Shown in pieces: positions 1 to 61,025 of a DNA stretch of 64,000 nucleotides. The stretch spans positions 3,455,882-3,519,881 of the forward strand of contig OX442420.1 in NCBI GenBank assembly GCA_949361645.1, given 5' to 3'. A program made the position numbers and the translations under genes. The notes under the pieces are model-generated. The model was not told the DNA's origin and ran no database searches. It saw nothing but the letters and a program-made list of their open reading frames with translations. Source of the stretch: Spongilla lacustris (taxonomy: Eukaryota; Porifera; Demospongiae; Spongillida; Spongillidae). Numbering within the stretch: position 1 is the first letter of the stretch; the number at the start of each line of letters is the position of its first letter.

Positions 1-815
1 TTGACTTTTCAATCTTGCATGTAAACAGAAAATGGTTATTTATCCAAACTTCAGCATCATGTAGTGTAATAGTACAAATTCTGTTTCACTAGCACTGCAA
101 GAAGGCATTGTCAAGCTGGCTGCAATGTTTGTATATTTTTATTTATTTATTTATTTATTATAATGCCATATATGGTGGAATGGAATTTGTTGATTTAATA
201 CCAGGTAATTCGCAATATATGATTTTGATTTATCAAAAGCAGATTCATTGGCAACTCAGTACCAGTGTGAATGTAATATAGCAGCATTCACATGAAATAA
301 TACCATCATGCATGCACTGATTTAGATTAAAATTAAAATTGAATCTCGCATGGCCAGCAATGGAATCTTGCATGGAAGGAGCAACCTTTCAGAACGAATA
401 TTAATAATTGCACAGGCCAATGTATGCAATGATAGTCTGTTTTGTTTAAAAATCAACAATGTTTGGGCTCAACCTTAAAAGTATGCTTTAAACATAGAAA
501 GATTCTTACTAATGCACTATACTTGTATAGTGTACTTGCATACATATCCAGGGCTGCAGACATTCATATAATCATGAGCAACACTGCAGAACCCTTACAA
601 GTATTACTTGAAAATTATAAACTGAGAAAATGAATGTCATACATGTATATGGAAATACAACTACAGTGGAAACGTTTTTGGTGCTCTTATTGGTAATTTC
701 AATCAATGCTAAATCACATGTTGCCAGTTCAGCAGAATGCAATTCTGGATTGTATGTTTGCAACACTAGTTAAAGGAAACATTGTACATGTTTTTATTTA
801 TTGTAACAATTCTTA
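1..815. other. Upstream flank of GAREM-like copy 1, no gene seen
   Basis: AT-rich sequence with no convincing ORF or family match on either strand. It probably holds the promoter and 5' UTR of the gene that starts at 861. A possible 3' splice signal (CTAACAG, ending near 827) lies just upstream of the start codon, so an upstream non-coding exon is possible. Confidence 0.4.
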
Positions 816-860
816 ATGACACTAACAGGAGGGAAATACTGTTCTGTAATAGATGCTAAA

Positions 861-2462
861 ATGGCAGAGGGAACTAAACCTTCTGCGCCTCCAAGAAAGA
901 AACCAGCTACAGGTCCCAAAAACACAGTCCGAAATATTATTGGAGGTTCTGCAACCAAGCCCAACCAAAGTGGTGCTCTTTCACTTACAGAATTTGTAGA
1001 GCAATTTTCTGATCGGCTGCCTCTCAGCATTCAGGTACAAACTGGATACCTTGGAGACAGTAGCCGTGTAACTCTTTCAGCATTTGATAGGCTTAATGTC
1101 CATTTTGTAAAGCACACTACAGTTGTGAATGCAAGTGTATCTTCAGTTCATTTCAGCATCCCTACTAATTCTGCTCTTGAGTTCAGCCTTTTGTACAATC
1201 CTAATAATAATGTTGATGAAGCATTGGAAGGCTTCACATTCAAAACTGTTGCTGATCTTATAAAATCAAAAAATTTACCACGATTTGTGTGTTGTACAAA
1301 AGCTTGGAAAAACGAGAAATGCACTATTAATAACAGGGAATTGCTTATCATCAGGGGAAAATGTGCTCCTCAAAGAACCACTGGTACTCAAGAAGCTATT
1401 GTTGTTCATAGTATCACATCATCCACACAGAAGATTCTTCCATTAGATTGTGAAGGTCAGTTCACAACAAAACCTAATTGCCTCCATTTATACCTTCCTG
1501 AGTACATAGCACATGTGTCAAATCTGTTTCCCTGTGAGGTTTGTATCTATACACAAAAAGCTGATATAAAGAGGCATACCCAAGCAATGCCACAGCACTT
1601 TATTGCTTCGGTGATCACACTAATGAAAACATCTACTGAAACCACTCTTCTTGCATCTCCAGTGCTTCCTGATCCTGAGTTCATTGACACAACCATGGAA
1701 ATTCCAATTGATATTCCTGAAGTAAAAATATCTGTCATTGAGTCAAAAGATATACAGCAAACACTTAACAAGAGTGCTTGTAGTGTACTACAAAGGTACA
1801 ACCCAAAACATGTGCAGTTTATGAAGGATGCAAATACTGAAGAGAATTACTCTATCCAGTCACAGTTGTATTCATGCATTCGGGAAGGGTATGAAACTGA
1901 TGGTATTCAGCCAGTTGAAGATTATGATTATATATCTCAAGGTTCATATTTACATCCTGGAATGCAAAGCTCAGTACAACGGGTCATGAAAGCATCAAAA
2001 TTAGGTAAACCACTTCCTCCAGTACCCCCTCAATCATCATTGCTGACCCCTTCATCAACATCTGGAGATGAAGAAGACATACAACATTTAGTACAACATG
2101 AAAATAAAATGATTAATGAAACTCATGTTCTTCATCCACTGTTAGCATTAAATCCACAGACACTAAATGTTGTGCCTGGCACAGCATCCTATGTTAACAT
2201 GGAGTGTAATACTTCTATGCCTAATCAAACTGTGTCAGATGTCAAAGCTTGGACTATTAGGTTTCAGGAGCTGCAAAATGTGATTGAGGCCATGCAAAAA
2301 AAAGTAGAAAGAATAGATGGCATACAACTTCAAGTTAAGAATCTGAGCCTGATGCTAAAAAAAGTACAAGTGGCAATTGGAATAAGTGATACTGAACCTG
2401 AAGATGAGAGTACTATTGCAGAAAGGAATCAGCATTATGTTTCAAAGATGTCTTCAAGTGAG
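861..2462 (+). CDS. GAREM-like CABIT adaptor, copy 1, exon 1
   Basis: This exon encodes 534 residues of a CABIT-domain signalling adaptor of the THEMIS/GAREM group; such proteins link receptor tyrosine kinases to Grb2/SHP2/MAPK. Seen: SH3 ligand PxxPxR at residues 7-12; CABIT domain at about 45-250 with the signature LPLDCEGQF (193-201) and upstream cysteines; SH3 ligand KPLPPVPP (383-390); YVNM at 444-447, which fits both YxxM (PI3K SH2) and YxN (Grb2 SH2); a coiled coil at about 461-506. An in-frame ATG lies 45 nt upstream, but 861 is chosen because both paralogues begin at the equivalent Met. The exon ends in phase 0 at GAG|GTTAGT; the open frame beyond this is intron read-through. The intron is 2463-3338. 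Signalling partners are inferred from family and motifs. Confidence 0.85.
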
Positions 2463-3338
2463 GTTAGTACTAGCTTACATGAGAAAGGCAGTATGGATGT
2501 TGAAAATTTATATGAAAAAGACTAATAGATACAATAACATATCTGCAACTGAATTGCATGTGGTTAGGGATTTGAGCACCAAAATGAAGTACATATTTAT
2601 TATTATGGTATAAAGGACCAATACTTCACAGGTATGGTACAATTAAGAAGTATATAGCCATTTCAAACTTCACCATTGGTAAGAACGTGAATAGTATAGA
2701 ATACCACGAACCCCTCCAAAATCAAATAAATCATTAAGATTATAATTACTAAAACAATATTTGTTGGCAGCCATGGTAACAAATATTTGGTCTTTTGATC
2801 GTAGTTTGGTCAAAAATGCTAGAGCATTTGTTGATAGAATGAACTCCAAGTTGAACTATTGATTAAGTATTACATTGTTTACACTCCTTACTTCAAGATT
2901 AAATTTATGAACTACATACAGTTGTACTGTTAATTTCCCTTGATTGCTACATCTTAAACAGCTAGTACGTACTGCATGTATTCATAGATTTTAGAATAGA
3001 ATTGGAAACCACGCACATGATCCATAGACCTGTGGAAAGACTCCATGTAGACATTGATATGTGTTAACTTGCTTGCTGGATAGCTCTGTGACCTCGCCCC
3101 ATAAACGTCAACTGTATTTCACAGATTTTTAATTGTTTCCAATCCTTCTACTCTATCTATGGTTAGATGTGCTGTTGCTAGATGCTTTTTCAATTATTTC
3201 CAATAATAGCAATTAAGCTATAGAAAAAGTTCTTTTTTAACTACTTAGCTGACTAACAGCATTGGAACTACTTGTTAGATGTGTGCATGTCCATCACTCT
3301 GAACATTGCTTCCAGAAACTCATACGTATTCCTTGCAG

Positions 3339-6789: not shown

Positions 6790-7455
6790 CGCATCAGCCA
6801 ATCTTGCGGCCATTTCCCAAAAGAAAGTTTGGCAAGCAGCAACGGTCGTTTTGCTCCTCATGATATGATAAACACATTGGCTTCATTACAAAGAGAGCAC
6901 GGATAAAGCATTTTGCTACTATACTGCATGGTAGCTGAGAAAATGGATGGTAATAGAGACAATGCGTTTTCAACTGAAGGCTTTTTTAATTGGAAGAAAG
7001 GATTGTTACGTTTTGAAAGACACGAGAGCACAGCTGCTCATCGTGAAGCAGTAGAAATGCTTGTATGCTAAACAAAAGATGTTGGAGAGATGTTGAGCGA
7101 TAGTTATGTGTTAGAAAAAGCTGAAAACAGAAAAATGCTCTCATTAATTATAAGCTTTCTAGGTAGGCAAGGACTAGCATTGCGAGGACATCAAAAGAAA
7201 TCCATATCAGATCCAACTGAAGGCGGGGAATTAGACTCCAATTTGACATTGACATCTCAACAAAAGGAATACTTTTCAGAAGTGACTAAGATTCTCAAAC
7301 TTATTCTACTTATGCCTGCGACTAACGTGACTTCTGAGAGAAGTTTCAGTGCTCTAAGAAGGTTAAAAACATGGCTTCGCACTACACAGCAAAGAGTTAA
7401 CTGGTGCATGATACTACAGGATCGGAAAGATAAACTGCAATCACTGAAATAGCAG
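6790..7455 (+). pseudogene. hAT-type (ZMYM/TTF finger) transposase relic
   Basis: The left part (about 6860-7080) decodes to a decayed TTF/MYM-type zinc-finger block ending FNWKKGLLRFERHESTAAH. The open frame 7090-7452 ends in the hAT dimerisation signature LMPATNVTSERSFSALRRLK followed by an LRTT..RVNWCMILQ helix. These are the N- and C-terminal parts of hAT-like transposases; the long middle with the catalytic region is missing, so this is an internally deleted, dead copy. A 23-base C run and a terminus-like GTCTACGCCCTTG lie to the right at 7862-7900 and may be its end. Confidence 0.7.
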
Positions 7456-7900: not shown

Positions 7901-8378
7901 CCAAGTTCCATAAGCATGGAGCGTTCGACCCCATTGGTGATTGGAATTCTTCTACATTTCAGATTTGTGTGTAGCAAAACATGTTTTGTGGTAGTGTATT
8001 CAATTCTTAATTCAGATACAGCCTAAAAAGTGCAATCCGATGCCCCATCGCACCTTCTAACCGTTGCGCACCGTAGGCGCCATTTTTGCAACCAAAAAAA
8101 AATAGGGTGGATAAACAAAAGATATATTACTCGCTACATGAAATTTTGTAATGAATCATTCTTTGTTTCAATTTTGGTAAGCCGCCCAATAAGGACTATT
8201 AACATTACAGGGTGCCCTACATGTACACGTATAGTGGAGCGGTATAAAGTGATCATTATCCACAGCGTATTTATCATGCTATAGGCCTACGTGTTTGGGT
8301 CTGTTATGAATTGTATTATTATATGTCTCGACTTTGGCAGGCGGTATCACTAGTATACAGGAGGGGAAGGTCCTATTG

Positions 8379-8478
8379 ATGATGGTAGTGGCCTCTGTGA
8401 TGGCGATAGTACACTTGCTATTAGTAATGTCCGGCGATGTGGAAGAGAACCCCGGACCTCTGGTTCAGCCCACCATAG
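8379..8478 (+). CDS. 2A-like signal-peptide exon of an NLR-type gene
   Basis: The exon encodes 33 codons plus one base. Tandem ATGs at 8379 and 8382 start a hydrophobic leader (HLLLVM core) that runs directly into SGDVEENPGP, an exact match to the ribosome-skipping 2A consensus D-V/I-E-x-N-P-G|P; the skip falls between codons at 8454-8456 (Gly) and 8457-8459 (Pro). N-terminal 2A sequences acting as alternative signal peptides are known from sponge, cnidarian and sea-urchin NLR-type proteins. The exon ends at ATAG|GTGAGA in phase 1 and joins the DEATH-domain exon in frame. The frame is open upstream to 8310, so an earlier exon cannot be excluded. Confidence 0.8.
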
Positions 8479-8531
8479 GTGAGATGAACATGTCACTGCT
8501 AAAGTTATGACTAATCTACTCTCTTCGTTAG

Positions 8532-8819
8532 ACCCACTGGACCTGCAATGCAGTGAGGAACACATTTATGAAATATCAACACTTAGCATAGAATGGAAGA
8601 TGTTGGGAAAACGTTTGATTGGTTTGCAGACCACCGAGGACATTGATCGTGAAGAACACAGTGAGCAGAACAAAAGAGATAAAATGTTAGAGAAGTGGTT
8701 GGAAATGAAAGGCTCTAAAGCCACATATAGAGTATTGATTGAAGCATTGCAACGCATAAAAAATGTTCAGGCTGCTGAGGCAGTGCAGAAATTGGCATCA
8801 TCACTGATGGCTATTGAAG
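8532..8819 (+). CDS. DEATH-domain exon following the 2A leader
   Basis: The exon is exactly 288 nt with phase-1 ends (acceptor CTTCGTTAG, donor GAAG|GTATGC), a module that can be added or lost without frame change. It encodes a full DEATH domain: IYEISTLSIEWKMLGKRLIG, then the KRDKMLEKWLEMKGSKATYR helices and a final LIEALQRI..AAEAVQKL helix. DEATH domains assemble apoptosis and innate-immune complexes. Its position directly after a 2A leader is the N-terminal layout of sponge NLR-like genes. The frame is intact. A standalone DEATH protein is an alternative, since no NACHT or LRR exon is seen downstream. Confidence 0.8.
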
Positions 8820-10207: not shown

Positions 10208-10267
10208 GTCCACCTCAATCAGTACCAATCAATCCTGTACCTGCCCCAGTTCAAAGTCAACATGAAG
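10208..10267 (+). CDS. Proposed proline-rich third exon of the 2A-DEATH gene
   Basis: A 60-nt segment lies between a good acceptor (TTTCCACAG) and donor (GAAG|GTTTGT), with phase-1 ends that continue the frame of the DEATH exon (MAIE-G-PPQSVPINPV...). The encoded 20 residues are rich in Pro, Gln and Val, as expected for a linker. Frame compatibility on both sides and divisibility by three support it, but the exon is short and no homology is available. The next exon, expected to carry NACHT or other domains, is not visible; transposon DNA starts at about 10595. Confidence 0.5.
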
Positions 10268-10594: not shown

Positions 10595-11158
10595 GGCATA
10601 TATATAATAATTATATATATAGATATACGTGTAACTAAAACTATGCTGTATGGGAAAGTTGGTGTTATGATTTGTGTAGTGTTTATTACCTTTGGACTAT
10701 TCCATCAGCGCATGTAAAAGAGACTGGCTAAACCTGGTACCCATTGTTGTCCTATTATGCTATCAATGAATTGGCATAGTCCTAACTTACCGTCAGCTCG
10801 ATGCTGCGCAATAGGGTCTCAGGTTAGGCTACACTACATTTTGGTGACAAGGGACTTGAAACTGATGGCATGGCTCTAATGGGCTCGGTGGGGCCGTTTG
10901 ACTGCGATATGGATGACTGGAATTTATACTGGAGAGTACTGCAGCAGTTCTTTTTGGTGAACGAAATCATCAGTAAGAAAGGAAAGCAATGTGCCATTTT
11001 TCTGAGTATGTGTGGCAGTGCCACATACCAACTAATACGCAGCTTGGTTGCTCCTGGAAACCCTGCGGATAAGGAGCTAGCTGTCCTCATAAAGCTAGTA
11101 GAAGGTTATGTATCGCTGCCACTATCAAGTATTGTTCAATGTGATGACCTCAGTCAGC
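10595..11158 (+). pseudogene. Ty3/gypsy-type LTR fragment and gag start
   Basis: This is a diverged copy of 11540-12137. The left part matches the LTR (ATTACCTTTGGACTATTCCA core) and ends near the CTACACTACA/TTTTGGTGAC junction typical of an LTR/primer-binding-site boundary. The right part is an open gag start with GPFDCDMDDWNLYWRVLQQF and LIRSLVAPGNPADKEL, hallmarks of gypsy-type capsid proteins. It breaks off at 11158, where antisense LINE sequence begins. It is a fragment, inactive. Confidence 0.65.
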
Positions 11159-11414
11159 TGATAAAACGTTAGGATTTAGCGGTGATGTCACCGAGATATC
11201 AAAGGCAGCTGGTTTACCAAGGGCCCAATTGGGTAGCAAAATGTCTGCGGGGCGTGAGTGGTCATGGTCTGAAGTAAGGTTGCTACCCATCTCCACCTTC
11301 ACACTCAAGTGGGCTCTACGGCAAGTCTCCACCAACACATTGCGCAGATGGTTGTGACGGATGACCACGTCTCCTCCTTTTTTGCATGTTGTGGCATGGT
11401 GACCAAGGGGATCT
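11158..11414 (-). pseudogene. REL-type LINE C-terminal fragment (copy of 27884-28140)
   Basis: The minus strand decodes to the endonuclease region MVIRHNHLRNVLVETCRRAH, then SRPADILLPNWALGKPAAFD. It is identical by eye to the corresponding part of 27593-28140 but lacks the C-terminus and 3' UTR, being cut at 11158 where it meets gag. The junction shares CTGATAAAACG-type microhomology. Either a duplication breakpoint or an assembly join. Confidence 0.65.
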
Positions 11415-11415
11415 A

Positions 11416-11460
<45 letters not shown>
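11412..11460. repeat. (TTA)n array at LINE 5' junction
   Basis: About sixteen TTA units separate the 5' edge of the antisense LINE fragment from the gypsy LTR. The same array, one unit longer, separates the same two pieces at 28139-28188. Confidence 0.9.
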
Positions 11461-12290
11461 GTGTATTATGCAATAAACACAACGTAACTAATAATGGTAA
11501 CACACTATCTAACAGGTGTCTTAAGCTTGAAAGGACATTTTACATGTATCTGTTTTATAATTATAATTATATATATAGAAATACATGTAAATAAAACTAT
11601 GCTTTATGTGAAATTTGGTGTTATGATTTGTGTAGTATTTATTACCTTTGGACTATTCCATCAGCGCATGTAAAAGAGACTGGCTAAACCTGGCTAAACC
11701 GGGATATTGCATTATATTACTTAAGGTAGTGAGTGTATTGTACCCATTGTTGTCCTATTGTGCTATCAGTGAATTGGCATAGTCCTAACTTACCGTCAGC
11801 TCAACGCTGTACAATAGGGTCTCAGGTTAGGCTACACTACATTTTGGCGATGAGGGACTTAAAGCTGATGGCATGGGCTCGGTGGGGCCGTTTGACTGTG
11901 ATATGGATGACTGGAATTCATACTGGGGAGTATTGCAGCAGTTCTTTTTGGTGAACAAAATCAGTAAGAAAGGAAAGCAATGTGCCATTTTCTGAGTGTG
12001 TGTGGCAGTACCACTTACCAACTAATACACAGCTTGGTTGCTCCTGGAAACCCTGCGGATAAGGAGCTAGCTGTCCTCATAAAGCTAGTAGAAGGTTATG
12101 TATCACTGCCACTATCAAATATTGTTCAACCTGACCTTAGTCTGCTGCCCCTAGCTGAGATGCCAAAGGATGTTCCAGTGCCAGGTGATTTGATTTGATG
12201 ATGGGAGCTCTGTCAGATCAGGAGTCTCCTGTGACATTTACTGACATCAAAGCATGGACAGGGAAGGACCCTCTGCTTTCTCAGGTCAGG
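11461..12290 (+). pseudogene. Ty3/gypsy-type LTR and broken gag, duplicated at 28189-29018
   Basis: The LTR runs from about 11461 to the CTACACTACA/TTTTGGCGAT boundary near 11843. It is followed by a gag frame starting at about 11873 (MGSVGPFDCDMDDW...), which hits a stop after ~40 codons because of a frameshift at CCATTTTCTG; the rest (SVCGSTTYQLIHSLVAPGNP) continues in another frame to a stop at 12198. The 28189 copy has the same break, so it predates the duplication. The segment ends at the assembly gap. Confidence 0.7.
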
Positions 12291-12490
12291 NNNNNNNNNN
12301 NNNNNNNNNNNNNNNNNNNNNNNNNNNNNNNNNNNNNNNNNNNNNNNNNNNNNNNNNNNNNNNNNNNNNNNNNNNNNNNNNNNNNNNNNNNNNNNNNNNN
12401 NNNNNNNNNNNNNNNNNNNNNNNNNNNNNNNNNNNNNNNNNNNNNNNNNNNNNNNNNNNNNNNNNNNNNNNNNNNNNNNNNNNNNNNNNN
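12291..12490. other. Assembly gap (200 N)
   Basis: A run of exactly 200 N, so a scaffold gap of unknown true size. ORFs spanning it are meaningless. The left flank is a near-identical duplicate of 27884-29018, so the join across the gap is uncertain. Confidence 1.
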
Positions 12491-13080
12491 ATGCATCCCG
12501 TTCAATGACAAGTGCAGAAACCAGATATGCACAAATCAAGAAGGAACTACTTGCTGTGTTATTCTCCCTTGAAAAGTTTCACCAGTACCTATACGGCACG
12601 CATGTAGATGTTGAATCTGACCACAAACCACTCGAGATAATAACACAAAAGCAATTATGCCAAGCACTACCAAGACTTCAGCACATGCTGTTACGACTCC
12701 AGCGATACGACTATACACTTAGGTACACACCTGGAAAGGACATGGTTATAGCAGACACCCTGTCAAGAGCATACATACCATACACACCTAGTGATGACCT
12801 GGAGGAAGATTTGGACTGTGCAGTACACATGGTGCTGGAGAAAAGCTCTGCTACTGACAAAGGACTACAGAAGGTCAAAAAGAACACAGAAACAGATCAC
12901 TCCCTTCAGAGGTTACAAGGCTTCATCAGAACAGGATGGCCCGACAGTAGAGCTGATCTACCTGAAGACATCCGTGCTTACTGGAATTTTCGAGTGGAAC
13001 TGTCTGAAGCTGGTGGAATCATCCTAAAAGGAGAACAGATTGTGATACCTGCCAACATGCACAAGGACATCCTCAGTTGA
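12491..13080 (+). pseudogene. Ty3/gypsy-type pol: RNase H region
   Basis: The open frame from the gap edge to a TGA at 13078-13080 encodes the RNase H part of a gypsy-type polyprotein: TSAETRYAQIKKELLAVLFS, then LYGTHVDVESDHKPLE and LRYTPGKDMVIADTLSRAYI. These are the characteristic E and D blocks of retroelement RNase H. The reverse transcriptase must lie in the gap or be absent. The TGA interrupts the frame just before the integrase zinc-binding region; the downstream ORF is in the same frame, so this one codon splits the polyprotein. Confidence 0.75.
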
Positions 13081-14082
13081 ATACACTGTGGTCACATGGG
13101 AGTTGTCAAATGCTTACAGCGAGCAAAAGTTGGTGTATATTGGCCAGGCATGTCTAAAGATATTACGGACATGATCTTAAAGTATGAAACCTGTATCAAC
13201 ATGCGTAACTCAAATGCAAAGGAACCAATGACATCGGGACCAACCCCAAACAGACCATGGGATATTCTAGCCACTGACTTATTCCACTGGAATAAACAGG
13301 ACTACGTGCTGATAGTGGACTACTACTCTCACTATGTTGAATTCAGCAGATTGGATGACTCGAGCAATAAGTCAGTGATAAACCATACAAAGTCAATATT
13401 GGCAAGGCACGGCATTCCCACACAGATAATAAGTGACAATGATCCACAATACGCATCAGAGGAATATCAAAGATTTGTGAAAGAATGGGGTATCTCTCAC
13501 ACGATCACCAGTCCACACTATCCACAAGCAAATGGAATGGCAGAAAAATTTGTCCAGATAGTGAAACGACTCTTGAACAAAGCGACACAGGACAATCAGG
13601 ATCCATACATGAGTCTTCTCATCCACCGGAACACCAAGATTGACAATCTAGCTTCACCTGCTCAAATGCTTATGGGTAGACGATTGCGAACAAACCTACC
13701 AGTCATACCCAAACAGTTAAATCCCCAAACTGTTGACCCTGAGAAAGTGAGCTTCGAACGAAGACAAAGACAAGTCACACAAAAGCAGTATCATGACAGA
13801 GGATCAAGGTCATTACCTGTTTTGGAACCGCGAGAGAAAGTGAGGATGCAAGTGCAAGGGAGGTGGATACCCGCAACGGTAGTCAGTAGGGCCGATACGC
13901 CTCACTCTTACATTGTAGAAACTCAAAGTGGAAAGCACTACAGAAGAAACAGACGTCACCTGATGAAATGCCACAAGGATAATGAATCTTCTTTTGATGA
14001 CTATGTCCCTCCAGTTGAAAATCCTGCACAGGAAGAAGAGAGAAATGATGGTGAGCTCAATACAGAGGTTGAACCACCATAA
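13081..14082 (+). pseudogene. Ty3/gypsy-type pol: integrase region
   Basis: Continues the previous frame after the TGA. It holds the HHCC-like zinc-binding part (GHMGVVKCLQRAKVGVYWPG), an integrase core with catalytic blocks ILATDLFH (D), IISDNDPQYA (D) and YPQANGMAEKF (E), and a C-terminal KVRMQVQGRWIPATV / HLMKC region. All three acidic residues are kept, but the TGA upstream, a TAA at 14080-14082 and the insert at about 14160 make it inactive. The tail of the same polyprotein resumes at about 14660. Confidence 0.75.
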
Positions 14083-23165: not shown

Positions 23166-26100
23166 TAAAACAAGATACAGGAGAATACACGAATAGAAAA
23201 CATTACTAATATGCTACCACCTACAGTAATATTGTTACTATTATTATTATTACAAACTACACCTATAGTAATTCTACACTAGTCATGAGGGCAGGAGCTC
23301 CCTTGCCAAGATGGCTCTGGCAATGGATTTGACCAAAGTCATGTTCAGCCTGCTGTAAATATCCACCAAGACACAAGGTTTGGGAGAGGACAAGGTGATT
23401 GAAAGGTGGGATGCCAACCTAGAAAAAGTTAGATGAGCCTCCTTACCCCAATTGCAGAAGGTCTCGACAGCCAGTGGAATGCATGTCCACCCCAACTCCT
23501 GACATTTGGGACCATTAGTTAGTATCTTCCGGGCCTCTGCAGCTGCAGATGCTGCACCAGACATTCGACTAGAGTCCATCAATATGGCTGGGCAGAGTGG
23601 CGATGCTACCGTGACATCAAATGCTGCAGGCTTACCCCTGTCCCACCCAGCTATGAGCACATCTGCAGGTCTGGAGTGGCTGTGATCTCTGGTAAGACCA
23701 TGACCCTTCTCTATGCTCACACTCAAATGAGCTCGTCGACAAAAGTCCACAACAACATCACGCAAGTGATTGTGCCTCACCACCACATCTCCCCCATGCC
23801 TGCAGGTTACAGCGTGGTGACCCAAGGGATCAAGGGCAACATCTGTGCAAAGGGGGCACACAGTCCCACCAACACCTACACCTAGCCACCACCTCACTGC
23901 AGTCTGGAACTCATTGCACTCCATGTGTAGGCCTAATCCCATGGAGGGGACCACTGACAGCCATGAAGCTGCATGAGGGGCTGAAGCGGACAGAAGTCGG
24001 GCTTTGTTTGCTGGGGAAGATGCCTCCAACAAAGATTTAAACTGATTTTCATCAATTCTGCTGGACAGCTCTCTCTGAGGAGTAGGAGAAGCAAGAGCAG
24101 ACTCAGCTGTAATTGTGTGGTGTAAGGAAACCTTGGAGTTATAAGCTACGACTGCCTGTTGAAGATGGCGATTGTTGGAAAGGCCCAGGCCTGATGACGA
24201 AAGTGAGGCAATGAAGGCAGCAGCTGCATGGCAAGAAAGAGAACGAAGGCCTAAGCCCCCAAACCTCAAACCAAGCTGAGCCTGTTTCCAGGCACTGTCT
24301 GATACTTCAATGGCTGAGCAGAGCACAAAACACTTCCTCACATCTTCATCGAAGGACACAAGGGCATCCGAAGCCACACTAGGAGGAGTGACCCTAGTCA
24401 GATGAACCATCTTGCAAAAACCTCCACACATGCGCAGCAACGTGAAGGCCACCTGGAGATCAACTCCCGCCACATCTACCAGACTTGAGAGCAATTTCTT
24501 GGATTCAGCACACTTGTTAGCGATAAATCGGGAACAGTGTAAGTAGTCGCCAACAGGGGCACCAAGAATGTCTAGGTTTGGTAGTAGCGAGTACTTCACA
24601 GCTGGTGGGAAAGAGGTGTTGCCTTTACTGCTGAAGAGCTCACATTTGGCAAAATTGATATGCAGGCCCAGAGAAGGTCCCATCTGTTCAATGATGTGCA
24701 CGGCCCGCAACACAGCTGGACGGTTTCCAGCTAAGGCACCATCATCAAGATACCATGCCTGGTAGAGGAGGTCCACACATTCTTCATCAGCCTCCACACT
24801 GGAAATTAGTTTATGCAAGACAAGTGCAAAAAGTAATGGACCCAGGGGATCCCCCTGTTGAACCCCTGACTCTGAACTGATTTGTCCTAGGGGGTGCCAT
24901 AACAAAGGATGTGAACCATAGCACCAAGACACCCAAGGCAAAAGTTCAGGGAAAAATGTGGCACATTCCTCCACAACTGCCTGTCTGGAGACAACATTAA
25001 ATGCATTTTTCATGTCTACCTTGAAAGCCACAAAGTCCTCGTCTAACCAGTGCTCCTCTAGACAGATCCTCAGACCATGAGTGATTTTTTCTGCACCTGC
25101 ACGACATGCCACACCAAATTGTAGAGGCTGCAAGAAATCAGCTGCCTTCACCTTCAGCAAAGTGCACATGCACTTCCCTACCAGCCTCCTTAAGGTTTCA
25201 CCCACAGCAATAGGCCTTATGTCAGGTGCAAACCCCTCCTTGTTCTTGTTCAGTGCAATTAGACTTCCCCCAGCTAAGAACCGTGACACTGAAGTGGGTG
25301 CCTTGCCTGCTGCAAGGATATTGATGACTAACCTAAGGGAGGAGCATATGGGAGTGGGAAGAGGGATGCTGGCCACATCAAGCAGGTGTTGAACTCGTAA
25401 GCCTGAGGGACCGGCTGCAGTGTCTTTGGGGAATGATCGCAGGACAGAGAGGATATTGAAATCAGGTTGCAGTGCAATAGACTCCACATTTGGGACAACT
25501 GGAACTACAGGTGCAGGGCAGCTGGGGTGTTTTGCTTTCAGAAGTTGCCATGTGTTCTCATTGTTTGGAGCAATGCCACTTGACTGCAGGATTCGACAAG
25601 CTTTTCCAAACATGCCATATCTGCCCAGTGATATGGCCCTGCCTACATTGTTACTGTTTTGGCGAATGGAAGAGGTGCTCTGGAGGGTATGGCTGATTGC
25701 CCTGCCTTTAGCCAAGTTCCATAGTGGACCCAGGTCATTGTCTGTCCACATGTTGCATAACACATCCACTGGGAGAGGCTTATCATGACGTCCCTGGCGC
25801 CTAAGTGACGGGAGAACACATTTTGGGAGCATGAAAAGTTTGAGCCATGCCTCCTCAGAATTCTCCTGAATGACACATCGCAAAGCTGATGACAGTGCCC
25901 GGGCAAAGGCGGGCCTGGATCTTGATGGAATGAAGCGCAGTGTTGGCTGGTTAAGAAGGCACACCTCCTCAAATGTAGGGAGACTTGGTTCAAGTTGGTC
26001 AGGGGGTGGAAATTCAGCAGGTGGATCATCAGAAGGTGTGGGTGTGTTTTCTGAGTGTAGGGCAGCTGCTGCCCCTCCAACACATTTTTTGGTATGCGAG

Positions 26101-27103
26101 GAAAGCCTTGTGTTGGAGACCAGCTGAAAACAGTAGCGGCAAATGTAGAGGTCATTCTCCTCCAGCCAGGTGATTGGCACATCACCAGGGAATACACCTT
26201 GTGCATGTAGCGTCATGTGGGCTTTCCACATAGAGGGAGCAATTAATTCTGAGCACCCTTCGACAATACACTGCTGCTTCCTTCGCAGCCTAGTTGTTAG
26301 ATTACTGGGCTGATGGCGAGTGTTGACTGGTGGCTGACTGTGAACTCCATGGGGCTCTTCTGCGAAAGATAAACCAAGTGTAGGCTGTGACAGTGATGTG
26401 TTTCTGTTGGAAGTCCCTGAAGATGTTGTAGGTCCCAGAAACTGCTGTGGGGAAGTAGGAGGCTGATGAGGCAATACAACATGCAGATCGCTCGCGAGGG
26501 GCACGAGAGGGGACTGTGGACGTGAAGTCAACGAAGGTTGAAGCGAAGCAAGAGGGGGCTGTGGGTTAGCGGTCAATAGTGGTGTTGACGCGGGCTGGGC
26601 CTGAGGATCAGAATGTGATCTCGGCAGCTGTGATTTAGGCAGCTGTGAGTGTGGCAGCTGTAACCGAGACGGTTGCAGATCTTTCAGGGTCGAATGATGC
26701 CCAGGCAACAGGCAAGAGGAAGAGGGTCGATGCCGTAAACGATACCGACTAGACGAAGTCGGGGGCGACAAGGGGGGTCTGTGGTAGGCCACAGCAGGTG
26801 GCTGCGGTAAGGAGTTAATGACCTGCGGAGAGGAGCGAAGCGGCTGAGGCGGGTTGGAAGATGAATAGTGTTCTAGAGGAAGTAATGAGGGTTGCGACGC
26901 CTGAGCCGATGAGCATGAAGGCGAAAGGATAGGGAGCAGCGGTAGCGGCTGCGACGATGTCTGAGAAGCTGTAAGCCTAATCGAAGCGTTAGCACACTTA
27001 CCTTTCCTTCCTGGGTAGCAGTCGATGCAGACTTTCTTGCCTTTAGCACAGGAGCAACCCTTACAGAGCGCTCTCTTGCCGTTGCAGCTGCAGCAAGGCA
27101 TTC

Positions 27104-27108
<5 letters not shown>
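23166..27108 (-). mobile_element. Intact REL-type non-LTR retrotransposon in (TAA)n
   Basis: A complete-looking element: a few bases of 5' leader, one 1272-codon ORF, about 117 nt of 3' UTR and a TAA tail, with TTA/TAA arrays on both sides. No LTRs and no apurinic-type endonuclease are present. Dong of the R4 clade is a known REL element found in TAA repeats; affiliation to that clade is inference. The absence of stops over 3.8 kb suggests recent activity. Confidence 0.8.
23283..27101 (-). CDS. RT/REL-endonuclease polyprotein of a non-LTR retrotransposon (1272 aa)
   Basis: Single intact ORF. Residues 3-37 form a compact CXC (tesmin/TSO1)-like cysteine cluster; 41-270 are Pro/Ser/Gln-rich. 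There is a C2H2 finger at 278-299 (C278, C283, H295, H299) and a CCHC finger at 321-340. Reverse transcriptase spans about 555-850: motif A FKVDMKNAF (D696), motif B SGVQQGDPLGPLLFA (745-759), motif C WYLDDG (D786, D787). C-terminal CPLC...GHHAVTC finger (1082-1100) and restriction-like endonuclease RPAD (D1147) ... AAFDVTV (D1162). This order is that of REL-type LINEs, which nick target DNA and prime reverse transcription there. The ATG lies about 7 nt from a TAA array, so the 5' UTR is almost absent. Confidence 0.85.
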   Translation of the reverse strand: MPCCSCNGKRALCKGCSCAKGKKVCIDCYPGRKGKCANASIRLTASQTSSQPLPLLPILSPSCSSAQASQPSLLPLEHYSSSNPPQPLRSSPQVINSLPQPPAVAYHRPPLSPPTSSSRYRLRHRPSSSCLLPGHHSTLKDLQPSRLQLPHSQLPKSQLPRSHSDPQAQPASTPLLTANPQPPLASLQPSLTSRPQSPLVPLASDLHVVLPHQPPTSPQQFLGPTTSSGTSNRNTSLSQPTLGLSFAEEPHGVHSQPPVNTRHQPSNLTTRLRRKQQCIVEGCSELIAPSMWKAHMTLHAQGVFPGDVPITWLEENDLYICRYCFQLVSNTRLSSHTKKCVGGAAAALHSENTPTPSDDPPAEFPPPDQLEPSLPTFEEVCLLNQPTLRFIPSRSRPAFARALSSALRCVIQENSEEAWLKLFMLPKCVLPSLRRQGRHDKPLPVDVLCNMWTDNDLGPLWNLAKGRAISHTLQSTSSIRQNSNNVGRAISLGRYGMFGKACRILQSSGIAPNNENTWQLLKAKHPSCPAPVVPVVPNVESIALQPDFNILSVLRSFPKDTAAGPSGLRVQHLLDVASIPLPTPICSSLRLVINILAAGKAPTSVSRFLAGGSLIALNKNKEGFAPDIRPIAVGETLRRLVGKCMCTLLKVKAADFLQPLQFGVACRAGAEKITHGLRICLEEHWLDEDFVAFKVDMKNAFNVVSRQAVVEECATFFPELLPWVSWCYGSHPLLWHPLGQISSESGVQQGDPLGPLLFALVLHKLISSVEADEECVDLLYQAWYLDDGALAGNRPAVLRAVHIIEQMGPSLGLHINFAKCELFSSKGNTSFPPAVKYSLLPNLDILGAPVGDYLHCSRFIANKCAESKKLLSSLVDVAGVDLQVAFTLLRMCGGFCKMVHLTRVTPPSVASDALVSFDEDVRKCFVLCSAIEVSDSAWKQAQLGLRFGGLGLRSLSCHAAAAFIASLSSSGLGLSNNRHLQQAVVAYNSKVSLHHTITAESALASPTPQRELSSRIDENQFKSLLEASSPANKARLLSASAPHAASWLSVVPSMGLGLHMECNEFQTAVRWWLGVGVGGTVCPLCTDVALDPLGHHAVTCRHGGDVVVRHNHLRDVVVDFCRRAHLSVSIEKGHGLTRDHSHSRPADVLIAGWDRGKPAAFDVTVASPLCPAILMDSSRMSGAASAAAEARKILTNGPKCQELGWTCIPLAVETFCNWGKEAHLTFSRLASHLSITLSSPKPCVLVDIYSRLNMTLVKSIARAILARELLPS

Positions 27109-27141
<33 letters not shown>
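27104..27141. repeat. (TTA)n array at the 5' junction of the intact LINE
   Basis: About 12 TTA units immediately upstream (on the minus strand) of the start codon of the intact ORF. It is interpreted as the insertion target and as the tail of the next element to the right. Confidence 0.9.
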
Positions 27142-27290
27142 TTTGGTAAATAATAATATTATTGGAGTAAATGCACATACAACATTACAATGGAATACAT
27201 GAAATACACATATTATTATTGACCATAGATTACATGTACAATGAAATAAAACCCCTAAGTAGTGTACAGCACACCAAAATTATATTATTA
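27142..27290 (-). pseudogene. Probable 3' UTR-only LINE fragment
   Basis: About 150 bp of non-coding sequence bounded by TAA-type repeats on both sides, in line with the neighbouring truncated copies. No coding part remains, so the assignment rests on position and boundaries only. Confidence 0.35.
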
Positions 27291-36942: not shown

Positions 36943-37673
36943 CTGCAAGGAATGCAAATTTGTGGAAAACAATTGTTAGTGGTGGTCGGTTTGATTACCT
37001 AACACCTAACATGTACATTAGTTCCAATACCACAAATCAGTGAAGTAAGTTAAAGAAAAACGTTTTTCAAATGCTTAATTGCTGTTGTATATTGTGACTG
37101 AAAGTAATTGTAAATAAATTTAAGATTCTGCAATCAGGTGGAGTTAACAGTACGTAGTTCTTAAATTTTGTCTGGAAGCAGGAAGTATATTTCATTCCCT
37201 AAATTCAAACTATAGTTCATAGATTGTTATACCAACACATTTAGTACTGTGTGCATTTGACCAAACACTAATCAAAGACAAAATCAAGATCAATATTTAA
37301 GTGTAAAATAGTGCCTTCCAGTATTAATTAACGGTTAATGTCTAGATGTTTTCTTCCATTTTGGATGGGTTGGTGCATGTTCTAAGCTGTAAATTTCTTC
37401 CTACTTCTTCCCACAACAGTTTAGTACATTTTTTTTTATTGAAGAAAATTTGAAATTTTTTTGATCGTACAATATCTGTAAAACCTTGATAATATTACCC
37501 AAAATTTGTACTTAATATTGGTGCTCAAATGCCTAGCTATAGGCAAGTATTATAAATCAGATTAATTTATACTGTTGTAGATATGTAATTGTTTCTATTA
37601 ATTCTTTTCTTGTGTGCATATAGATTTTCAACATCCATACTGCCTTTCTCATAAATGTGTACTTAGTACCAAC

Positions 37674-39197
37674 CTCACTTGAAGACATCTTTGAAACATA
37701 TTGCTGGTTCCTTTCTGCAATAGTACTCTCATCTTCAGGTTCAGTATCACTTATTCCAATTGCCACTTGCACATTTTTTAGCATCAGGCTCAGATTCTTA
37801 ACTTGAAGTTGTATGCCATCTATCCTTTCTACTTTTTTTTGCATGACCTCAATCACATTTTGCAGCTCCTGAAACTTGATAGTCAAAGCTTTGACATCTG
37901 AAACAGTTTGAGTAGGCATAGAAGTATTACTCTCCATTTTGACATAGGATGCTGTGTCAGGCACAATGTTTGGTGCCTGTGGGTTTAATGCTAATGGTGG
38001 ACTGTCATCTCCTGTTGTTGATGAAGGGGTCAACAATGATGATTGTGGGGGTACTGGAGGAAGTGGTCTACCTAATGTTGATGCTTTGGGGACCTGTTGT
38101 TCTGAGCTTTGCATTCCGGGATGTAAATATGAACCATGAGATATATAATCATAATCTTTAACTGGCTGAATACCATCAGTTTCGTATCCTTCCCTAATGC
38201 CTGAATACAACTGTGACTGTATACAATAATTCTCTTCAGTATTTGCATCCTTCATGAATTGAACATATTTTGGGTTGTACTTTTGTAGCACACTACAGGC
38301 ATTCTCGTTTAGTGTTTGCTGCATATCTGGGGACTCCATGATAGATATTTTTACTTCAGGAATATCAATTGGAATTTCCATGATTGTTTCAGTGAACTCA
38401 GGATCAGGAAGAACTGGAGATGCAAGAAGAGTTGTTTCAGTAGATGTTTTCATTAGTGTGATCACTGAAGCAATAAAGTGCTGTGGCATTGCTTGGGTAT
38501 GCCGCTTTATATCAGCTTTTTGTGTATAGATACAAACCTCACAGGGAAACAAATCTGGCACATGTGTTATATACTCAGGAAGATAAAGGTGGAGGTTATT
38601 AGGATTTGTTGTGAACTGAGCTTTACAATCTAATGGAAGTATCTTCTGTATGGATGATTTGATGCTGTAGACTATCAAAGTTTCTTGTGCACCCTTTCCC
38701 TTAATGATAAGCAATTCTCTGTCATTAATAGAGCACTTCTGATTTGTCCAATTTGTCATGCAGCATACAAGCTTTGGGAGAATTCTGGCTTCAATAAGAT
38801 CTGCTACACTTTTGAACGTGAAACCTTTCAATGCTTCATCAACGTTATTGTTAGGATTGTACAATAGGCTGAACTCAAGAGCAGAATTAATAGGTATGCT
38901 GAAATTTGCTGAAGATACACTTGCATTAACAATTTTAGTGTGCTTTACAAAATGGACATTCAGCCTATCAAATGCTGAAAGAGTTATACGACTACTTTCA
39001 CCAAGGTATCCAGTCTGTACCTGAATGCTGATAGGTAGCTGATCTGAAAATCGCTCTACAAATTCGACGAGAGAAAGGCTTTCTGTAAGCTTCTGTTTGT
39101 TGGCCTCAGCTGTACAAACTGCCACACTATGTCGGAAGCTTTTGATAATTGATTTCTTTCTTCGAGGTACTGATGGAGGTTGCGATTCTTTTGCCAT
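37674..39197 (-). CDS. GAREM-like CABIT adaptor, copy 2, exon 1
   Basis: A 508-codon exon starting at ATG 39197 and ending at GAG|GTTGGT, the same phase-0 junction as copy 1; the intron is 36943-37673. It keeps the full layout: PxxPxR at residues 8-13, CABIT at about 45-240, SH3 ligand RPLPPVPP (377-384), YVKM (418-421) and a coiled coil at about 435-480. Oddities: the CABIT signature reads LPLDCKAQF, so the usual Gly is Ala, and YVKM lacks the Asn that makes the copy 1 motif a Grb2-type site. It is shorter than copy 1 between the proline motif and YxxM. The frame is intact, so it is probably functional. Confidence 0.85.
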
Positions 39198-39965
39198 CCT
39201 ACAATTTAATGAAGAACAGTTTTTGTTAGTGTTGATGCAAAATATATAGTGCTCATATTGACTAAGGTAAAAGCTAATTACAATACTGACAATCTGGTTC
39301 TTCTTTTTTTTTTACCAATACAGATTGCTCAACTCAGCAAAACACAAGATGATACATTTAACATTGCTGGTATGCTTTGCACCCATTTTTAAACTGCCCA
39401 ATGAACCTTGCCTATTTTGCTCTAATCTTTTTTTTTTTTTAAGGATTTATAGTCCGCAGATGATGTACGTTTAACCCCGTATAATACATGTATTTTGGAT
39501 TTAGTGATACAAGGTGCATGGGAATTATTCAAGATCATGGGCGCCCCCAGCATTTCTGGAAGGGCCCCATTCAATATATTCACGTGACGTGGCCGTTACT
39601 CGTTCTTCAATAATCTGAGTGTTCTCTTGTGTTTTCAAGCGCACAGTGATAGCGGAGCGATCTGATTGGCCATGAGTATCGTGCAATTCAGCGGGATATA
39701 TCGTTTTCATACCTAACCGCGTGTGGTTTATGGTTGGTTGATTGATGCTAGAGTAGTTAATGTTTTCTGTCTACTTGACTCCACTACTCAGTAAACGTGC
39801 CAATACTTTACATTAGACGGTATCATAACATTGATGTCGATCTGCCACATGTAGGTCATGCATTAACATCGAACAGTTACTTGTAGCAGAGATATATTGT
39901 GCCTGATGCATATTCACTATAATGTGCATATTTATAGCCATATAGTGGGGAGAGAAGTTTGAATT
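39198..39965. other. Upstream flank of GAREM-like copy 2
   Basis: Non-coding as far as I can see; it probably includes the promoter and 5' UTR. An acceptor-like TTGTAG sits immediately before the ATG at 39197, so an upstream non-coding exon is possible. Confidence 0.4.
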
Positions 39966-57640: not shown

Positions 57641-58132
57641 CTGGAAAAGAAAAAATGAAACTTTTAATCCCATTCACATGGTCATATTCAATTTCAAAAT
57701 TCTTTAGACTTTTAGATTGCTTGTCAAAATTAATGCAAATGCATCTAGTACGTTATACACATCCATTCTTTAAAAAATTGGTGCTTGAATAAAAGTTTTA
57801 GTTTCGATTAGGCCCAATGTTGATGACAGCACTCTTCTGATCAGGTCTAAATGTTTATCTATTAAGTGCCTATTTATTCTTTGAGGAATACTGCCAAATA
57901 ATTTCATCAAAGCTATAATGTACATTAGGTTGCCATGAATTAGTTATTTTGTAATGTACAACCATATGCATCATTAAACCACACAATCATGGATACCAGC
58001 AAAATTAATTGCTAATATTGAATCATGAATTTTTTTAAACTGAAATGCACATTTTTGTACAATCAAATATAATTTAGGTATAATTTTCTGAAATTCTGAT
58101 TGTATTTTTTAAAATGCACTAATTTTTCTTAC

Positions 58133-59849
58133 TTCACTAAAAGTCATCTTTGAAACAAACTGGCGATTTTGTTCTGCAATAAAACTTTCATCATCAGGTT
58201 CAGCTCCAATTACCGCCTGCACATTTTTCAGCATCAGGCTGAGATTCTTGATTTGACACTCTATGCCATCAATCCTTGCAACTTCCTTTTGCATAGTCTG
58301 AATGATACCATGAAGCTCCTCAATTTTTTTTTTCAATGCTCTGTAATCAGGCACAGATTCAGTATGCATTTGTGCACTCTCCATCCTGGTATAATACATT
58401 GCTGCATCAGGCACATTTTCATGAGTTTGTGCACTCTCCATCCTAGTATAATACATTGTTGCATCAGGCACATTTTCATGATTTTGTGCACTCTCCATCC
58501 TGGTATAATACATTGTTGCATCAGGCACATTTTCATGGGTCTGTGGAGTCAACACTGATGCCACGTCACCGTTTGTAAGATCAGGTAAATCATTCCATTC
58601 ATTTTTATGGGAGCCTGAAAGTGGCACACCTTCCTTGTCTTCATTTCTTATTGGAGAACTCAGCAATGAAGGAGAACTTGTTGGAATTCGAGGAAGTGGT
58701 CTCGGAAGTGTTGATTGTATAGTCAACTTCTGTTCTGGATTCATTGTGCTGCGACACAAATCAGAACGTTTCTTTGAACATACATAATCATAATCTGATT
58801 GAATGCCATTAGTTTCATATCCTTCACGAATACCCGAGTACAATAGTGACTGGATATTGTAATCCTCTTCTGTACTTGCATCCTTCATAGATTGGACATT
58901 TTTTGGGTTGTAATTTTCTAGGATGTGGCGGGAATTTTCATAAAGTTCCTGTGTTTCATTTCTATCTGATGACTCAATGACAACGATTTTGACTTCAGGA
59001 ATATCAACTGGAATTTCCATAATTGTGTTACTGAACTGAGGAATTGCTGGAGATGCGACAAGTGTGGTTTCAGTCGATGAACGGATTAGTGTTATCACTG
59101 AAGTAATGAAATGCTGTGGTATTCCTTGCATATGCTCCTTCGGGTCAGCTCTTTGTGTGTAGATACAAACCTCACTGGGGAATAGGTTAGACACATGTTC
59201 CATGTACTCGGGAAGGTAAAGATGGAGGTATTTAGGGTTTGTTGTGAACTGACCTTCACAATCTAATGGAAGAATCTTCTGTGTGGATGATGTGACGCTG
59301 TAGAATGTAATAGTTTCTTGGGTATTATTGGTTGTTTGAGGAGAACATGTTCTCGTAATGACAAGCAATTCCCCGCTATTGATAGAGCATTTCGAATTTT
59401 TCCAAGCTTTCATACAACAGTGGTAGTAATTTTGCTTTTGTAAGATCAGCAACAGTTTTAAATGTGAAGCCTTTCAATGCTTCATCAACTTTATTGTTAG
59501 GATTGTACAATAGGCTGAACTGAAGAGCAGAATTAGTAGGAATGCTGAAATGAACTGAAGATACACTTGCATTCACAACTTTAGTGTGCTTTACAAAATG
59601 GACATTCAGCCTATCAAATGCTGAAAGAGTTACACGGCTACTTTCTCCAAGGTATCCAGTTTGTACCTGAATGCTGAGAGGTAGCTTATCAGAAAACTGC
59701 TCTACGAATTCTGTAAGTGAAAGGGCACCACTAAGGTTCCATTTGGAAAGAGTTTCAGAGCCTCCAATAGTATTTCTGAGCTGTTTCTTTTGACTAGTAG
59801 TTGGTTTATTTCTTAGAGGCACAGGAGGAGGTTTTGCTCTCTCTGCCAT
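58133..59849 (-). pseudogene. GAREM-like copy 3, exon 1 with 8-nt deletion
   Basis: The exon starts at ATG 59849 (MAERAKPPPVPLRN, PxxPxR ligand) and ends at GAA|GTAAGA, the shared phase-0 donor; the intron is 57641-58132. The length, 1717 nt, is not divisible by three. Comparison with copies 1 and 2 shows 8 nt missing at about 59418-59422, in the CABIT domain just before the conserved CC-x-KAW block. The frame shifts there and a stop follows at 59376; the rest stays open in the other frame to 58133. CABIT signature LPLDCEGQF, SH3 ligand RPLPRIP, three YTRM motifs and a coiled coil are all readable. It is either a young pseudogene or a local sequencing/assembly error. Confidence 0.75.
58381..58551 (-). 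repeat. Three 57-bp in-frame repeats carrying YxxM
   Basis: Three tandem units start at 58381, 58438 and 58495, each 57 bp, encoding HENVPDATMYYTRMESAQ with minor changes. Each unit carries one YTRM, a PI3K-type SH2 site. Copies 1 and 2 have a single equivalent unit (SYVNM, SYVKM). Confidence 0.9.
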
Positions 59850-59864
59850 TTTATTGCAGGACAA

Positions 59865-61025
59865 ATTTTATATTTCCCTGCTGTAGGTGTTATACATTTC
59901 AGTAAAAATTGCTACTTACCTGTATATTAAACATATTACAAACAGATGTTAATCAGTGCTACTAACATACACTGAGGTAGAATCCAAAGCAGCTGTGTAT
60001 TTGCACTCCACTACACTGGCAAATGCAATCCTAGTTTGCAATTGCAGCCAGAATTATTGGGAGGGCTAATTTCTACCATATATATAAAATTATATATAAT
60101 TATAATACCATACATATACATATATTCACCTAGATAAAATACATACCAAAAAACAATTCACTGTAGTTGCATGTATGATACTATAAACTGCATTTCATAT
60201 TTTTTGCCAGTTAATGCTTCTATAGGGCCAGTTGCTCAAGAATCTAAGGATGGCTGCAGCAGTTTTGGGGCAGAATGATATTATTCAAAAAGCAACAAAA
60301 AAGCAACAAAAAAGACACTGTCCTTAATGCCCAACTAGTTGTGTACATGTACAATAAGTATTGTTTTCACTTCTTTCAGCCCATAGCTATGTGTTCATTG
60401 ATACAGTCTATGCATTCAAAGATCACCTATATTGACAGTGTACGTGTGTGTAGTGTCCCAGTACATGTATATCATGGAAAGGTGATTATGTGCAATTATA
60501 CATCAACTGCTATGCACATGAAAGAGGATATGTACTGCGCAAGACAATAATTTTTCTATATCTTAATTAAGCTGAGTCAACAGCTGCATCTCTATCATAT
60601 CTAGCAAAGCTTAACAATCATTATACAGCACTGCATAATTAATTAGGTGCAATGATATGTTCACACAGCACAACTTAGTTTATGCATTTATATTGATGTT
60701 AGCCTGTGCATTTTTGCCTGGAAGACTATATTACCCAGTTGCCATGATTCAATTTTAAGCTTCATCCATGGATAGGCCTACTGTGTCTCATTTAATTATT
60801 AACAAATGCTGCTATATTATATGCTCACTAATACGAGTTGCTAACGAATCCAATTTGATAAAATCAGATTCATATAGTGAAAATTACCTGGTATTGAATC
60901 AACAAATTCCATCCCACTGTGCAGGGCATTATTTAAAAACATGCACATGAACGTAAACATTGCAGCTTGGTACTGACTTCTTGCAGTACTAGTGAAACTG
61001 CGTTTGTACTAGCACATGATATGAA
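59865..61025. other. Intergenic upstream of GAREM-like copy 3
   Basis: No gene seen; it probably includes the promoter of copy 3. AT-palindromic text lies at 60080-60120. Confidence 0.4.

Follow-up and report, generated by a model that had tools for sequence, protein, structure and literature searches.

Our analysis of a 64,000-nucleotide stretch of Spongilla lacustris DNA (hereafter the window, meaning the whole stretch) supports a model in which two of its exons, one for a hydrophobic leader ending in a 2A motif and one for a DEATH domain, are exons 2 and 3 of a multicopy NLR family of freshwater sponges, preserved here as a truncated copy, and in which members of the family would skip the Gly-Pro bond of the 2A motif and so yield two products. 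Taken as a whole, we consider this model likely to be correct. A complete member would comprise, in order, an N-terminal exon with a YRARIG motif (the YRARIG exon), a hydrophobic helix, SGDVExNPGP, DEATH and NACHT. In our model, ribosomes that have reached the hydrophobic stretch and the 2A sequence of a complete member would mostly leave Gly and Pro unjoined, releasing a membrane-prone N-terminal peptide of ~125-135 aa together with a cytosolic DEATH-NACHT receptor that starts with Pro, while a minority of unskipped chains would retain the hydrophobic segment and could be directed to membranes. This segment is internal, and unskipped complete chains may or may not enter the ER. The family represents a new variant beside the published 2A-bearing NLRs of sea urchin.

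The features of the window locus are as follows (all plus strand).

8203..8345, +, remnant (limits approximate) of the YRARIG exon's 3' end and intron (alignment; in-frame stop, splice sites judged by eye)
8379..8478, +, 2A exon, hydrophobic leader MMVVASVMAIVHLLLVM followed by SGDVEENPGP-LVQPTI, donor GTGAG (related leaders at another 48 loci, sorted by eye)
8430..8459, +, SGDVEENPGP, skipping predicted after Gly (8454-8456) and before Pro (8457-8459) (sequence, motif pattern search)
8479..8531, +, 53-bp intron, phase 1, GT..AG (sequence)
8532..8819, +, DEATH-domain exon, 96 aa, phase 1-1 (Pfam, structure, at least 134 genome matches)
10208..10267, +, short exon rich in proline, phase 1-1 (also conserved at the paralogs C3:1354k and C3:1381k)

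The frame of the 2A exon opens at 8310, past a stop, and MMVVASVMAIVHLLLVMSGDVEENPGPLVQPTI begins at ATG 8379; the first in-frame ATGs are those at 8379 and 8382, and shorter in-frame starts lie at 8400 and 8427. DVEENPGP starts at 8436, in frame inside the coding exon, a GT donor follows 8478 and an AG acceptor precedes 8532. Because the 53-bp intron shifts the frame, splicing is needed at 8478/8532, and the phase 1 join leads into DPLDLQCSEEHIYEIS... of the DEATH exon, which ends at 8819 and is followed by GT. If the donor of exon 10208-10267 is unused, the protein ends after ...SQHEGLLSSLNSTVS. The initial annotation had proposed a leader exon ending in SGDVEENPGP and joined in phase 1 to a complete DEATH exon at 8379-8819; its coordinates proved right, the splice sites are present and the DEATH exon is intact. 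The exon scores 35.3 bits against Pfam PF00531 (E 1.2e-8, cut-off 22.6), and the AlphaFold model of the ORF protein (P0001, pLDDT 88.5) has the helical fold of death domains, with FADD, TRADD, RAIDD and RIPK1 death domains as best PDB matches at probability 1.00 and a best E-value of only 0.021. By sequence, a profile of 24 relatives matches the death domains of RIPK1 and Fas (best E 6.6e-5).

The 2A motif is not peculiar to the window. When the genome was searched at the DNA level (248.6 Mb, or 248.56 to two decimals, in 51 contigs), the strict pattern DVEENPGP gave 19 sites (5 forward, 14 reverse) and D-[VILMF]-ExNPGP gave 54, with DV in 49 and DI in 5, while the reversed patterns gave 0 in both cases, ruling out a chance origin of the window motif; relaxing the pattern to DxExNPGP raised the count to 55, the additional site having a stop within the motif. 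Sorted by eye, 49 of the 54 sites belong to one leader family, typically LL(I/V/L)(L/M/I)SG-DVExNPGP-LGQ, and the remaining five comprise four with a different DIEENPGP leader and one on C17 that has no hydrophobic leader. The invariance of the motif itself is built into the search pattern; at positions independent of it, Leu -6 (48/49), Leu -5 (45/49), Ser -2 (45/49) and Gly -1 (48/49) are kept while the codons vary. Counting against the model, at three of the 49 loci every Met of the open frame lies within 10 codons of the motif or none is present ahead of it; one of the three is C9:9389151, with a frame that starts just 5 codons ahead of the motif. Two of the 49, in all, have open frames that extend just 13 and 5 codons ahead of the motif.

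Support for the idea that the 2A exon belongs to an immune gene comes from what lies behind it. The window DEATH exon has at least 134 matches in the genome at E ≤ 0.01 (150 of 162 candidates scored) and NACHT at least 83 (104 of 141 candidates scored); for linkage we used the best 76 of the 134 and 77 of the 83, on the same strand and downstream of 2A, within 15 kb for DEATH and 40 kb for NACHT. With these matches, DEATH follows 33 of the 54 2A sites and NACHT 26, both domains follow 18, DEATH only 15 and neither 13, the last two counts weighing against the model; among the 49 family loci, DEATH or NACHT follows at 41. Random placements gave means of 0.25 for DEATH and 0.73 for NACHT, with maxima of 3 and 4 in 500 trials. 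A 2A site lies upstream of 12 of the 13 closest DEATH matches among those listed, the window counted, and at 21 of the 49 family loci the DEATH exon match begins 60-89 bp past the motif. In the nearest paralog (C3:9557k), the 2A exon and DEATH are accompanied by an open NACHT reading frame of 562 aa, making it an NLR with NACHT in the same gene.

The reverse association is looser. Among the best 76 of the 134 DEATH matches, 42 have no 2A within 15 kb upstream, from which we conclude that the DEATH exon does not need 2A; nine of these 42 sit 416-971 bp before NACHT and form a class of NLR that has no exact 2A. In the 1.5 kb before each of seven of the 42 exons, we found no convincing match to a variant 2A or to YRARIG. 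Two relatives have no NACHT in a further 7-8 kb of sequence, which counts against the model: C2:2442k, in 8 kb downstream, and C9:7310k, where DEATH is followed by an ORF of 296 aa that has neither NACHT nor any other Pfam match at E up to 0.1. The latter locus (C9:7301600-7308600) suggests that 2A leaders may also serve DEATH proteins that are not NLRs.

Database relatives of the leader reach far upstream of it, which led to the discovery of the YRARIG exon, which starts MG[VI]D[LV]..YRARIGTF and lies a few hundred bases before 2A. A 51-aa query finds 32 copies genome-wide, 30 of them within 700 bp upstream of a 2A site and two not; all 30 sites are among the 49 family loci, and with this query the exon was not found at 24 of the 54 2A sites (19 of the 49 family loci), which counts against its being universal. 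One YRARIG exon without an exact 2A within 700 bp downstream, at C2:9062192-9062344 (minus strand), is possibly a copy with an altered 2A. The donor and acceptor of the intron between the YRARIG and 2A exons were placed by eye, and phase 0 was computed for one locus. The exon has a median dN/dS of 0.11 over 28 codons (124 pairs among 18 MGVDL sequences, filtered for at most 8 residue differences and dS above 0.15), and we conclude from this value that it is coding; a Pfam search of the region gave no match at E up to 1.

The presence of this exon changes the reading of the leader. In three long models, two of them spliced in this analysis, NPGP falls at residues 125, 127 and 134, compared with residue 24 in the window copy, and the hydrophobic stretch lies ~100-125 residues in wherever the YRARIG exon precedes; in one YRARIG-2A leader AlphaFold places a helix at residues 91-122, just before 2A, at a low overall pLDDT of 52. 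At the YRARIG-bearing loci (30 of 54), 2A is thus not within ~26 aa of the initiator Met, an arrangement that is possible in the window copy because the upstream exon has been lost there. The proposal that members of the family natively begin with the short hydrophobic leader is not supported: the YRARIG exon comes first at 30 of 49 loci, although one gene model, P0126, fits the proposal. Where the YRARIG exon puts NPGP at about residue 125-134, the hydrophobic segment can no longer be read simply as a signal peptide, and it may equally well anchor the chain in a membrane or be a helix that serves only for stalling.

The same architecture is present in a second genus. Four predicted proteins (P0088-P0091, Ephydatia muelleri / Em gene set) run from MGVDLATYRARIGTF through SGD(V/I)E.NPGP to NACHT in one chain, and the NLR models EMCRGX_G002758, EMCRGX_G002839, Em0001g2612a and Em0001g2569a have the MGVDLATYRARIGTF leader, hydrophobic stretch, 2A, death-type region and NACHT; all E. 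muelleri proteins are gene models, and the last two were placed in this species by their Em prefix. In the two of these models that were tested, P0088 and P0089, Death scores 23.6 and 25.3 bits (Pfam cut-off 22.6), and NACHT is above its cut-off too. P0088 and P0091 are apparently two annotations for one gene. The junction LGQNTE-DLLDMECSEED of P0088 is homologous to LVQPTI-DPLDLQCSEEH of the window. Of the initial annotation's reading, a 2A-type element joined to the DEATH domain of an NLR-type family is supported: related leader and DEATH exons are found at many loci, and E. muelleri gene models have the same join. Whereas the window copy is truncated, the E. muelleri models continue from the leader through NACHT; and whereas the S. 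lacustris leader is split by an intron, contig-derived E. muelleri-type proteins have one ORF straight across. E. muelleri also has 2A leaders joined to another death-type exon. P0126 (Death, partial NACHT and LRR matches) begins inside the hydrophobic stretch, ~23 residues before the skip site; as a gene model it would place 2A within ~26 aa of the initiator Met, and it counts against a long leader in every member.

The window copy is best explained as a truncated member whose upstream exon would have decayed and whose NACHT would have been lost, with retroelement sequence near its downstream side. Its upstream region aligns solely with the 3' end of the YRARIG exon, nothing aligning with the 5' (YRARIG) part; an in-frame stop lies inside the relic and, judged by eye, the family donor and acceptor positions have no GT or AG, another AG lying slightly downstream. 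On C6, NACHT is absent from the profile-search matches listed, and a tblastn of the paralog NACHT exon against the window, covering ~55 kb downstream of DEATH, gave no match with E below 1, so that the window copy is not a complete NLR. Upstream of the 2A exon, at 7072-7452, there is an ORF that encodes a hAT dimerisation domain, and within 1 kb of exon 10208-10267 there is a fragment (11150-11416) that by eye resembles the retroelement at 23283-27158. A clear YRARIG start is likewise missing from some related copies on C2 and C4.

The 2A, DEATH and 10208-10267 exons of the window copy are still intact. Pairwise dN/dS of its DEATH exon against 11 paralogs, which does not measure present selection, is 0.16-0.67 (0.16-0.46 against ten unbroken paralogs and 0.67 against the broken copy C3:10145038), and in 84 DEATH codons it has 3 private changes, compared with 0-7 in the ten unbroken paralogs and 23 in the broken copy, the last partly due to its shifted frame. 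The intact exons, these dN/dS values and the private changes suggest either that the truncation is recent or that the fragment is still in use. If transcribed, the locus would encode, at its longest from the ATGs at 8379/8382, a leader of 26-27 aa followed by a DEATH-only polypeptide.

We regard the sponge family as the counterpart of the sea-urchin NLRs with N-terminal 2A signal sequences (SpNLR2A) described by Roulston et al. 2016 (PMC4981915). According to the parts of that paper covered here, 2A occurs in 85 of 241 urchin NLRs, or 14 of 87 later NCBI entries with a 26-aa N-terminal 2A; the urchin leader skips at an estimated ~80% in vitro, and a skip-dead mutant sends a reporter to the Golgi and the medium. 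Common to both families are a hydrophobic leader and SGDVExNPGP before DEATH-NACHT NLRs in many copies. They differ in that, at 30 of 49 sponge loci, a conserved coding exon precedes 2A, which then lies near residue 125-134; the window copy is without that exon and without NACHT. In the same parts of PMC4981915, several mutations of L13 and L14, as well as R11A, lower skipping, while the natural variant M12V is active. With numbering matched by eye, Leu -6 and -5 of the sponge family correspond to L14 and L13, and the window leader has Leu and Leu at these positions, Val at 12, as in M12V, and Met in place of R11. Long hydrophobic side chains thus adjoin the motif, a suitable upstream context as judged from this by-eye comparison with the mutants, and the Leu, Leu and Val match leads us to expect skipping should the window leader be translated.

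The initial annotation held that N-terminal 2A leaders were already known in sponges; our literature search, with subscription papers outside its scope, recognised no published 2A in sponge NLRs among the papers listed. In the portions of text covered, PMC5009743 does not contain "2A-like", the Dysidea avara NLR paper (PMC12909245) does not contain "ribosome skipping", "2A peptide" or "signal peptide", and the E. muelleri genome paper (PMC7385117) does not contain "NLR" or "NACHT". PMC5890393 was rejected as a sponge case, "2A-like" being part of a gene name and NLR occurring solely in the references of the text covered. According to PMC12846837, 2A recoding is seldom put to cellular use.

As originally interpreted, the window locus would natively encode a small DEATH protein with an N-terminal signal/2A leader, and its one mRNA would give a cytosolic form together with a secreted or membrane form. 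In favour of this reading, the 26-27-aa leader has a maximum 17-residue hydropathy of 2.59 and ATG 8382 has A at -3 and G at +4, the 26-aa urchin leader of matching length confers dual localisation in mammalian (HeLa) and plant cells (PMC4981915, part of text), and P0126 likewise starts just before 2A. Nevertheless, the coding exon found upstream at 30 of 49 family loci is largely lost from the window copy, and we consider this reading unlikely. A reading in which skipping is weak or absent and the hydrophobic exon, although it retains the motif, does no more than anchor the protein in a membrane is consistent with the predicted helix right before 2A and with the SGNVEMNPGP or SGNIEMNPGP that replaces the motif in some E. 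muelleri relatives; against it, the sponge family conserves the Leu positions that the urchin leader requires in order to recode fully (PMC4981915), and its probability is very small.

An origin of the 2A exon as a retrotransposon remnant, linked to DEATH by chance or exon trapping, is suggested by the occurrence of 2A sequences in non-LTR retrotransposons (as stated in the parts of PMC4981915 and PMC11512398 covered), by the many retroelement ORFs of the window and by the retroelement fragments that separate DEATH from NACHT at C3:9557k. Yet while such elements have the same 2A motif, in S. lacustris it is linked to immune domains: the 41 of 49 family loci with DEATH or NACHT after 2A (in the match sets given above) are far above random, and the E. 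muelleri models have the same 2A-DEATH join. As the present state of the 2A exon we disfavor a retrotransposon remnant, and the reading as a whole appears very improbable.

It is tempting to speculate, although we would not yet bet on it, that 2A provides freshwater sponges not with a detachable signal peptide but with two co-encoded immune products per NLR mRNA of this kind, one a conserved ~130-aa YRARIG peptide whose tail is the hydrophobic 2A segment, the other a DEATH-NACHT receptor, that truncated copies supply DEATH-only decoys, and that the 2A leaders of sponge and urchin are either independent or of ancient common origin. The presence of ~49 loci in one sponge and of the family in a second freshwater-sponge genus suggests that 2A-NLRs are no echinoderm oddity. 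Dozens of natural variants, and relatives with and without 2A, allow tests of where 2A in innate immunity comes from and what it does there, and the function of the upstream YRARIG peptide is open to direct study.

Finally, we note several features beside the main family. The second leader family, LLLM(S/A)G with DIEENPGP, is found at C1:6194780, C1:6274373, C5:265160 and C10:8724616; downstream of the C10 leader, within 600 bp, a sequence matches Death only weakly (sub-threshold, 14.3 bits, E 0.047). The isolated DIEVNPGP at C17:4073019, which has no hydrophobic leader, has no match to DEATH within 15 kb or NACHT within 40 kb. In the window itself, an ORF of 1291 aa with a reverse transcriptase domain occupies 23283-27158 (minus strand), and fragments like its C-terminal part recur, by eye, in the window and at the end of E. 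muelleri P0128; retroelement ORFs, the second with integrase domains, lie at 12235-14082 (plus strand), with 200 bases masked at 12291-12490. Three long frames related by eye, at 807-2525 (plus), 37557-39311 (minus) and 58109-59867 (minus), are apparently intronless duplicated CABIT genes, the domain being called in 807-2525 and in a part of 58109-59867 and not in 37557-39311.
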